A stretch of DNA of 64,000 nt from Pantoea phytobeneficialis. GTDB lineage: Bacteria > Pseudomonadota > Gammaproteobacteria > Enterobacterales > Enterobacteriaceae. The notes beneath the pieces were generated by a model that did no database searches, was not told the origin of the DNA, and was given only the letters and a program-made list of their open reading frames with translations. The stretch's first letter is position 1. Every line of letters starts with the position of its first letter. Location of the stretch: the NCBI RefSeq assembly GCF_009728735.1, contig NZ_CP024636.1, forward strand, positions 3,664,931-3,728,930, read 5' to 3'. The position numbers were made by a program, and so were the translations under genes. Positions 1 through 24,528 of the stretch are shown here, piece by piece.

Positions 1-67
1 TCCCGTTGCCGGGCAACAGGCAGAGGTCGAGTTTGTTTTTACTGACATCAATACCGAGATAAATCAT
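1..67 (-). CDS. IS110-family transposase, N-terminal fragment (cut by window edge)
   Basis: Reading the minus strand from ATG at 67-65 gives MIYLGIDVSKNKLDLCLLPG and then leaves the window. The GIDVSK motif near the N-terminus, with its first catalytic Asp, is the hallmark of the DEDD (RuvC-like) domain of IS110/IS1111 transposases, which recombine DNA under the guidance of a bridge RNA. A Shine-Dalgarno sequence GGGAG lies just upstream (AAAGGGAGCTGTCTT before the ATG). Only 22 residues are visible, so the subgroup (IS110 versus IS1111) rests on the non-coding RNA lying upstream of the gene, as in IS621. The fragment ends because of the window, so nothing here suggests that the gene is broken. 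Confidence 0.8.
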   Translation of the reverse strand, partial: MIYLGIDVSKNKLDLCLLPGNG

Positions 68-69
68 AA

Positions 70-265
70 GACAGCTCCCTTTCACATGAACCATCACGCC
101 ATCTTGCCTTGTACATACGAAGTCAGAGCTTCTGGTTACCGTTCAGAGTAGATGCTGGCGTGAAAGGAGAAACGGAGGGCTTTAAGCTACGGCACAAGAT
201 CGGGTCTTAAGCGGCGCGACAAGCTGCCTCCGTTTCGTGTAACGGGTAGCTAACCAGTTACAACT
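70..265 (-). ncRNA. IS110 bridge RNA with target- and donor-binding loops
   Basis: Read on the minus strand, three structures follow in the order known for IS621 bridge RNA. First is a 5' stem-loop (239-261, GTAAC/GTTAC plus GGT/ACC). Second is a target-binding loop closed by a perfect 10-bp stem (227-236 with 169-178). Third is a donor-binding loop closed by a 7-bp stem (157-163 with 94-100). In the target loop, minus-strand TCGCGCCGCT (219-210) is identical to the REP flank at 285-276, and GCCGTAG (193-187) is complementary to CTACGG, the continuation of that REP in intact copies. In the donor loop, TACAAG (113-108) is complementary to CTTGTA at the element's own end (277-272). The structure and guide matches are seen directly. 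The RNA ends and expression are inferred. Confidence 0.7.
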
Positions 266-275
266 TCAAGATACA

Positions 276-342
276 AGCGGCGCGATTTATCGCGCAGGTA
301 TTACCGATAGCGTTAAAGGCGTGCGATGAATCGCACCGCTAC
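276..342. repeat. REP palindrome pair interrupted by the IS110 element
   Basis: A REP unit (AGCGGCGCGATTTATCGCGC) faces an inverted partner that ends CGCACCGCTAC at 342. The intact copies at 24338 and 57026 begin GTAG; here the GT is missing because the IS110 element joins inside that tetranucleotide, after the AG/CT core. The inverted unit supplies the TAG stop codon of chaA (341-339, minus strand). GTAG plus a hairpin is the form recognised by RAYT (TnpA-REP) transposases. Confidence 0.8.
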
Positions 343-1430
343 AGCATAATCGTCATCAAATAGCCGACAAACAACGCCAGGTGCGCCGCGCCATTCAACA
401 CATTGGTTCGTCCGGTGGAAAATGAAATATGGCACAGGATCAGCACCGCACTCATCACCACCATATGCGGTGGTTCCAGACCGAACACCAGTTGCTGCCC
501 GGTCAGCGTGGCTATAATGGTTACCGCCGGTACGGTCAGTGAAATGGTGGCCAGTACTGAACCGAAAAACAGGTTCATCGCACGCTGCACCTGGTTCATC
601 AGCACCGCTTTAATCGCCCCCAGTCCTTCCGGTGACAGGATCAGCAATGCCACAAGAAAGCCAGTAAACTGCTGCGGTGCGTTTAATTCGGTTAACAGAT
701 GCTCCAGCGTGTTGGCATTCATCTTGGTTACACTGATAACCGCAATCAGATGCACAATCAGCCAGGCGGTATGCCATAACGAGCTGTGCGCTGAAGGTTT
801 TCCGTGGTGCGGGTCGCCATCATCGCTCTCATCCTCGTGTTCGTAGACAAACAGGTTTTGATGCGTTTTGGTCTGAATCAACAGAAACACGCCGTACATT
901 GCGGCAGAAATCGCCGCAATCAGCAAAGCCTGTGCAGTTGAAAAATTGCCGCCGGGCAACGCATTCGGGAACACCAGCACCAGGATGGCGAGTGGGAAAA
1001 TGGCGATCAGATATTGCTTCACCCCCACCAGATTGACGTATTGCGTTGCGAATTTGCGTCCACCCAGCAGCAGGGCAAATCCCACCAGCCCGGCGGTAAC
1101 AATCATAATGATCGAATACAGGGTATCGCGCATCAATGCGGGAGCGGCGTCGCCGGTTGCCATCAGCGCCGATATCAGGCTGACCTCAAGGATCACCACG
1201 GAAAGGCTGAGTATCAGCGAACCATAAGGCTCACCCAGTCGGTGCGCCAGCACATCGGCATGGCGTACCACGCTGAACGCACTACTCAGAATGGCCACCA
1301 GGGCCAGCAAATTAATGCCAATCACCACTGGCAGGCTGGTTTGTGCACCAAAAAAACTCAGTACGCCCAGTGCGACGATGGGGAAAATCAGGGAATATTC
1401 AGTGTGACGGGTTTTCTCATGTACAGCCAT
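339..1430 (-). CDS. chaA: Sodium-potassium-calcium/proton antiporter ChaA
   Basis: A 363-residue, almost wholly hydrophobic inner-membrane protein of the CaCA superfamily, the same length as E. coli ChaA (about 366). It exchanges Ca2+, Na+ or K+ for protons. Two related halves carry the conserved acidic membrane motifs: LSLSVVILEVSLI near residues 75-90 and ALLILSPEGLGAIKAV near 260-275. Between them lies an acidic, His-containing cytoplasmic loop (EHEDESDDGDPHHG, about 196-210). The start has a good ribosome site (GGAGAGG). It is divergent from chaB/chaC. Its stop codon TAG lies in the GTAG foot of a REP palindrome, so the extreme C-terminus has probably been shaped by REP insertion. Confidence 0.93.
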   Translation of the reverse strand: MAVHEKTRHTEYSLIFPIVALGVLSFFGAQTSLPVVIGINLLALVAILSSAFSVVRHADVLAHRLGEPYGSLILSLSVVILEVSLISALMATGDAAPALMRDTLYSIIMIVTAGLVGFALLLGGRKFATQYVNLVGVKQYLIAIFPLAILVLVFPNALPGGNFSTAQALLIAAISAAMYGVFLLIQTKTHQNLFVYEHEDESDDGDPHHGKPSAHSSLWHTAWLIVHLIAVISVTKMNANTLEHLLTELNAPQQFTGFLVALLILSPEGLGAIKAVLMNQVQRAMNLFFGSVLATISLTVPAVTIIATLTGQQLVFGLEPPHMVVMSAVLILCHISFSTGRTNVLNGAAHLALFVGYLMTIML

Positions 1431-24341: not shown

Positions 24342-24401
24342 CGGCGCGATTTATCGCGCGTTTCTTCCGTGCTGAAAATGCGCGATAAATCGCGCCGCTA
24401 C
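24338..24401. repeat. REP palindrome pair (BIME-like) after nas operon
   Basis: GTAGCGGCGCGATTTATCGC and, after about 20 bases, its inverted copy ending CGCGCCGCTAC. Each unit has GTAG at the foot and a CGCGAT/ATCGCG hairpin. The layout matches RAYT-mobilised REPs. It is the intact version of the site interrupted by the IS110 element at 276 and gives the stop codon of the preceding gene. Confidence 0.9.
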
Positions 24402-24528
24402 GGGACCCGTGCTGGTGACAATTTCCCTTATGGCTAAATAAACTGACGTTTTCTCCCCTTAATCCACGCTTTAGCTTCGTCGCCTTTTGGCATTCTATGC
24501 TCAGAATTCCTGCCAGCAGAGGTATGCC

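Follow-up and report, generated by a model that had tools for sequence, protein, structure and literature searches.

The first few hundred bases of the window, by which we mean the whole 64,000-nucleotide stretch of Pantoea phytobeneficialis DNA analyzed here, raise the question of how an insertion element comes to lie in a REP sequence and of what reads that sequence. We consider it very probable that an insertion sequence of the IS110 family, similar to IS621, has its left end in these bases and that a non-coding RNA predicted on its minus strand is a bridge RNA directing insertion at REPs.

An IS110-family element split by a scaffold gap

The left end extends on the minus strand from position 277 to about 70 (277-68). 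It encodes what reads as an IS110/IS621-type bridge RNA, and the recombinase gene starts next to it (1..67, minus strand; MIYLGIDVSK...). The gene is cut by a 100-N scaffold gap in the genome of the window, G000 (G000:C1:3664831-3664930). This gap directly precedes base 1, splits the element, and places its right end outside the window. A C-terminal part of the recombinase lies beyond it at G000:C1:3664684-3664830. Due to the assembly gap, the window's own recombinase is not readable as a whole, and in G000 the protein was read as N-terminal and C-terminal fragments only. Matches to the C-terminal recombinase domain numbered 22 in this genome, 21 of which belong to this element. In G000, a 100-N gap comes after all but one of the 18 left ends found (17 of 18). 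Behind four of these gaps (L010, L015, L016, and L017), the sequence resumes with something other than the right end of the element, and the scaffold joins at these loci may be wrong.

An intact orthologue with an open frame was found in another genome, G042, where the left end is 90% identical to that of the window. The orthologue contains both PF01548 (the DEDD RuvC-like domain) and PF02371, and it matched the PDB chains of IS621 and ISCro4 with E values of 7e-52 and 4e-52, respectively. The GID, EAT, NDTAD, and TSG motifs of the recombinase could be aligned to IS621. The comparison with IS621 was made through these PDB chain alignments and through published papers; searches of E. coli that might have recovered IS621 returned partial matches only, none covering 80% of the query. 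Scanning genome contigs with the G042 recombinase yielded only two loci, both planctomycete, which were not used, and a near-identity search of plasmid records for the element gave no match. An Rfam search of window positions 1-700 with E values up to 5 returned a chance snoRNA match only, the RNA being unrecognized by any Rfam model.

The non-coding stretch upstream of the gene is about 210 nt long, and the element has the long left end and short right end of the IS110 group. Assignment to the IS1111 group was considered and rejected: a long non-coding region would be expected downstream of the gene, and here it lies upstream. The terminal match starts about 8 nt past the stop codon in L088 and L097, which are siblings from G303 (same genus) and G124 (another genus), and 165 to 257 nt past it in siblings L090, L113, L115, and L117. 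In the G042 copy (L075), this distance is 219 nt instead of about 8 nt because the right end contains, upstream of its conserved TTGAC, a pair of REPs (about 640-720, plus strand; about 1680-1760 of the reverse complement).

Insertion into REPs and the predicted bridge RNA

At least 18 copies of the left end were found in G000 (40 of 513 candidates scored). The 18 copies start at the core dinucleotide CT (276..277, minus strand), and every one of their left flanks ends TCGCGCCG|CT. The left target TCGCGCCG (278..285, minus strand) is thus carried by 18 of 18 flanks; it represents one half of the broken REP. The second REP unit of the pair adjoins it on the plus strand at approximately 317..342, where TCGCACCGCTAC (331-342) differs from the guide at one position. 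From the window alone, the far junction had been predicted to read CT and then ACGG. Beyond the gap it reads GACGGTAG|CT|ACGG, as predicted, with CT followed by ACGGATAG and with CTACGGATAG as the element's own right flank. All 21 right ends read GACGGTAG|CT|AC, 11 of them going on with GG, and the 21 right flanks differ beyond CTAC. For 13 of the 18 left ends, a right end could be paired across a gap. Another genome of the species, G030, has an empty site at which one CT within a REP connects the two flanks; this empty REP (L137) is one base off the guide, with ATCCCGCCG instead of ATCGCGCCG. Since the empty site contains both flanks and a single CT, insertion is scarless at CT into a pre-existing REP.

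The target belongs to the GTAG-tagged class of REPs, palindromes with GTAG at one foot, for which this tag provides the class name (PMC3733652). It is present in high copy number, with 549 occurrences of TCGCGCCGCTAC in G000 versus 7 for a reversed-pattern control. On the opposite strand, the unit starts with GTAGCGGCGCGA. The REP survey (PMC3733652) makes no mention of Pantoea and places no such REP family there. CTACGG was present at 11 of 21 occupied and 184 of 549 intact sites. This difference was not significant (P = 0.058), and a preference of occupied sites for the longer right guide was dropped as a candidate. Tandem REP arrays occur in the same genome at C1:4120636-4121522 and C1:690819-691363, with a regular spacing of 87 and 44 bases, respectively.

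The initial annotation had described a 5' stem-loop, a target loop, and a donor loop on the minus strand, with guide segments in both loops, and this architecture was recovered. Folding of 85-265(-) resulted in a 5' hairpin (238..262, minus strand), a target-binding loop (169..236, minus strand) closed by a 10-bp stem (227-236/169-178), and a donor-binding loop (95..162, minus strand) closed by a stem around 152-162/95-103. The fold had a z score of -2.55, and 2 of 200 shuffles were as good. Both loops, which had been expected to persist among homologous elements, are kept in a consensus fold of relatives. Of its 39 pairs, 20 show compensatory changes on both sides, including changes in the stem of the target loop; this fold was derived from the same alignment (21 of the 23 distinct left ends, with L076 and L083 left out) and has no shuffle control.

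Three of the guide segments agree with the reading made of them earlier. The left target guide TCGCGCCGCT (210..219, minus strand) is identical to the left target plus the core at 276-285(-). The sequence occurs five times in the window (the guide, the flank, and three intact REP halves) versus 0.37 expected. The right target guide GCCGTAG (187..193, minus strand) is complementary to CTACGG(C), CTACGG being found in the intact REP at 24398-24403, and it fits the element's own right flank (CTACGGA) at six of seven positions. Next to it, the target-loop handshake guide CT (185..186, minus strand) is complementary to the AG that terminates the right end, as required by the handshake described for IS621 (PMC11208158). 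In the donor loop, the right donor guide TACAAG (108..113, minus strand) is complementary to the left end CTTGTA. The fourth guide was predicted to match the right end, and this was only partly borne out: when the left donor guide GAACGGTAACC (134..144, minus strand) is compared with the right end GACGGTAG|CT, ACGGTA and the core C match, but there are mismatches at the core T and at the base preceding the core. This imperfect pairing counts against the bridge-RNA explanation.

A candidate -10 box, TATCTT, is located at 268..273 (minus strand), judged from its sequence only. The right end provides a -35-like TTGACG, and the combination TTGACG-17 bp-TATCTT arises only when the right and left ends are joined, as in a circular form. 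TTGAC was found near the terminus in all 12 elements with an identified right end. This arrangement is a candidate for the circle-junction promoter reported for IS621 (PMC11208160).

We propose that the target loop would read the REP, with TCGCGCCGCT as the left guide equal to left target plus core and GCCGTAG as the right guide complementary to CTACGG(C). The donor loop would bind the joined ends of the element itself, through ACGGTA..C at the right end and through TACAAG at the left end, and the DEDD recombinase would swap strands at the shared CT, resulting in scarless insertion. Both junctions, the empty site, the conserved paired loops, and a guide-target co-change down to one base (described below) can be read directly from the genomes; transcription from the circle-formed promoter, RNA binding, and strand exchange would proceed by analogy with IS621. 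The hairpins of the left end might instead act mainly as an antisense or attenuator RNA controlling recombinase expression. Such a role has been reported for ISPpu9, an IS110 element residing in REPs, with regulatory small RNAs around its transposase gene (PMC8450116). As the main function here we regard it as very unlikely, since it leaves unexplained both the fit of four guide segments to the two junctions and the co-change of guide and target; antisense or attenuator and guide roles are not mutually exclusive.

Covariation of guides and targets among relatives

If the RNA guides insertion, its guides were expected to covary with the target sites across relatives, and this was observed for the left and the right guide alike. 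The comparison covered 62 loci (L009-L026, L075-L083, and L088-L122), 59 of which gave a left end (L082, L101, and L118 gave none). Not included were the truncated elements L084 and L085, L086-L087, L001-L008, and L027-L056 (among them further copies of the window's element and 8 shorter left ends from G030); L123-L136 stood outside the permutation tests. Some loci represent the same place twice (e.g., L077 and L100), and the 59 left ends reduced to 23 distinct sequences with 19 distinct target loops. In the corresponding 19-row matrix, L079, L081, and L083 were merged with L078, using the worst match of those four. The 8-nt left targets agreed with their own loops at 127 of 152 positions, whereas the best of 100000 permutations reached 118. 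The permutation leaves relatedness in, yet many of the target loops are clearly different sequences. When positions 40-100 of the left end were searched, the best guide match fell at position 55-64 in 23 of 23 distinct left ends.

For the right guide, 43 of 48 positions agreed with the four bases after the core in 12 elements, a value that none of 100000 permutations reached. Restricted to 8 distinct right targets, agreement was 28 of 32, which was reached by 3 of 100000 permutations. These right ends were located in 12 of the 21 aligned elements via the donor-guide motif, which makes the donor match a result of construction but not the bases after the core. The other nine aligned elements had no credible right end, and the L119 slice held only 6 bases of right target. 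Elements found later follow the same guide-target rule, with AAGGAGAG in guide and target of the copies in G401 and G340 and with GAGGGAA in G384. Poorly matching sites count against it: L080 agrees at 4 of 8 positions, and L078, L089, and L111 agree at 5 of 8.

Identity between a guide and its flanking DNA could also originate from element ends that were duplicated or converted together with the adjacent REP, with no targeting involved, and REPs do enter these elements, as illustrated by the G042 copy, whose right end contains a REP pair. We consider this origin next to impossible. The 21 right flanks that differ beyond CTAC and the empty site show insertion into pre-existing REPs, siblings at non-REP sites obey the same guide-target rule, and the position of the best match is fixed in all distinct left ends.

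Several of the siblings at non-REP sites (L077, L081, L083, L092, L114-L116, and L121) lie a few tens of bases downstream of a similar GC-rich sequence (GCCGG...TGATAGGTT-like, judged by eye), and they may share another repeated target structure. Three copies of one sibling (L090, L091, and L094) occupy the identical site GACAACTATC beside flanks that appear similar by eye; these flanks may be the end of another mobile element.

Guide and target were seen to change together by a single base within the genus. G303 contains 10 sibling copies with recombinases 77 to 78% identical to that of G042. Their left guide reads TTGCGCCGCT, with TTGCGCCG in place of TCGCGCCG, one base being changed. Nine of the insertions are at TTGCGCCG, one is at GTGCGCCG, and none is at TCGCGCCG, and all 10 right flanks begin CTAC. 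Intact sites in G303 number 105 for TTGCGCCGCTAC and 103 for TCGCGCCGCTAC (10 and 9 for the reversed-pattern controls). With the GTGCGCCG copy left out, the probability of finding 0 of 9 insertions at the other REP variant is 0.002 if the variants were used in proportion. The window's own element is uninformative alone in its use of TCGCGCCG over TTGCGCCG (18 of 18 insertions; P = 0.23) because G000 holds 549 intact TCGCGCCGCTAC sites versus 47 TTGCGCCGCTAC sites. The one-base co-change is one evolutionary event seen through 28 insertions. Sister elements with left guides one target-facing base apart, hitting REPs with the same base difference, provide a natural measurement of bridge-RNA specificity in living genomes that is independent of plasmid screens.

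The same comparison bears on the idea that the recombinase protein, or the shape of the REP, sets the specificity and that the RNA matches are incidental. The sibling proteins differ as well, by the 77 to 78% identity given above, and the palindromic REPs might be recognized by shape; in the case of the IS3-family elements IS1397 and ISKpn1, which target REPs, the transposase was proposed to set the target (PMC1525189). However, in G303 the altered target base is accompanied by an altered base in the guide itself, guides permuted among siblings never reach the observed match, and siblings with related proteins occupy different sites, each spelled in its own loop. We therefore give specificity by protein or shape hardly any credence.

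In G124, the guide reads TATCCACC, and the three insertions next to it are in TATCCACC|CTAC. This site forms the foot of a different palindrome, which would be the REP of that host. GTAG is kept in the right guide of the four REP-targeting elements read, i.e., those of the window, G042, G303, and G124.

Relation to known elements and the donor-loop handshake

The mechanism is already known, and the element offers an unusually clean natural test of it. Bridge RNAs, guide-target covariation over 5,511 target pairs (thousands of IS110s), and the REP target of IS621 have been published (PMC11208160), as have the insertion of several IS110 elements into REPs (PMC1525189) and the natural redirection of close relatives (PMC11187229). 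The initial annotation had called the element an undescribed natural variant. This may hold for the element itself, which was not found in the literature searched, but not for bridge RNAs, covariation, REP insertion, or natural retargeting. Neither the element nor tracking of REPs by guides was found by title or abstract in this literature, coverage of which was partial, with few subscription papers and preprints; the element may be among the thousands of unnamed elements in the published survey. Nor did the literature searched yield examples of REP tracking resolved to one base, or of a high-copy clade with a donor-loop handshake base unable to pair with the target.

As in IS621 of E. coli (PMC11208160 and PMC11208158), the core is CT, two loops carry left and right guides, and the target REP is cut at CT|AC. 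Further likenesses are the circle-formed promoter (here by sequence), the long left end, and a related protein with aligned DEDD and S-G motifs. Unlike in IS621, the REP reads TCGCGCCG|CTAC instead of ATCAGGC|CTAC, the right guide can pair over 6 to 7 bases instead of 4, and the donor-loop handshake base lacks complementarity to the target. Pseudomonas putida has two IS110-family elements, ISPpu9 and ISPpu10 (PMC1525189 and PMC8450116), that likewise place each copy at one position of the host REP, and they have a 2-bp direct repeat (AG in ISPpu9, the complement of CT here), but host REP and proteins are different; this comparison was made by description only. The ISEc11/ISXne4 seekRNA pair (PMC11187229) similarly comprises close relatives that differ in target-matching RNA bases and in their targets. 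However, these belong to the IS1111 group and show a whole target change, whereas here one base follows a REP variant.

In published covariation data, target position 7 is the partner of the donor-loop base that follows the right donor guide (PMC11208158). The base at this place is G (107, minus strand), for which no pairing is possible with the G before the core of the window's REP. The handshake was evaluated for 46 de-duplicated insertions, with identical 20-base flanks merged (10 rows for the 18 copies of the window's element and 8 rows for the 10 G303 copies). It was satisfied in none of 19 insertions of the clade of the window's genus (the window's element, G042, and G303), where G faces G, and in 24 of 27 insertions of elements outside the clade (C with G, G with C, and A with T), the exceptions being L079, L133, and a G-U in L080. 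The unpaired donor-loop handshake counts against the bridge-RNA explanation. The target-loop handshake with donor position 7 was present in all 12 elements with an identified right end, by G-U in L075; where the last base of the right end is A (L089 and L119), the handshake guide base is T.

On the simplest reading, the clade descends from an element that, like the one in G124, had C at position 7, and its target guide later changed with the handshake base remaining as it was. IS621 still recombines with G166C or G166U (PMC11208158), which agrees with the view that the donor-loop handshake pair may be dispensable. A broader reading, to which we assign about even chances, is that REP-targeting IS110 elements keep up with the host REP through base changes confined to one guide: the right guide would retain the GTAG foot, and the left guide would follow the stem, which varies. 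In the clade formed by the window's element, G042, and G303, the donor-loop handshake base would have lagged behind this switch and would still suit an earlier target carrying C ahead of the core. Donor-side handshake pairing would be dispensable in nature, given at least 18 copies in one genome. The unpaired base provides a natural recombinase for testing the weight of handshake pairing and bears on the design of bridge-RNA editing tools. The handshake G at window position 107 corresponds to the base after CAAG in L009-L026, L075, L097, and L102-L110.
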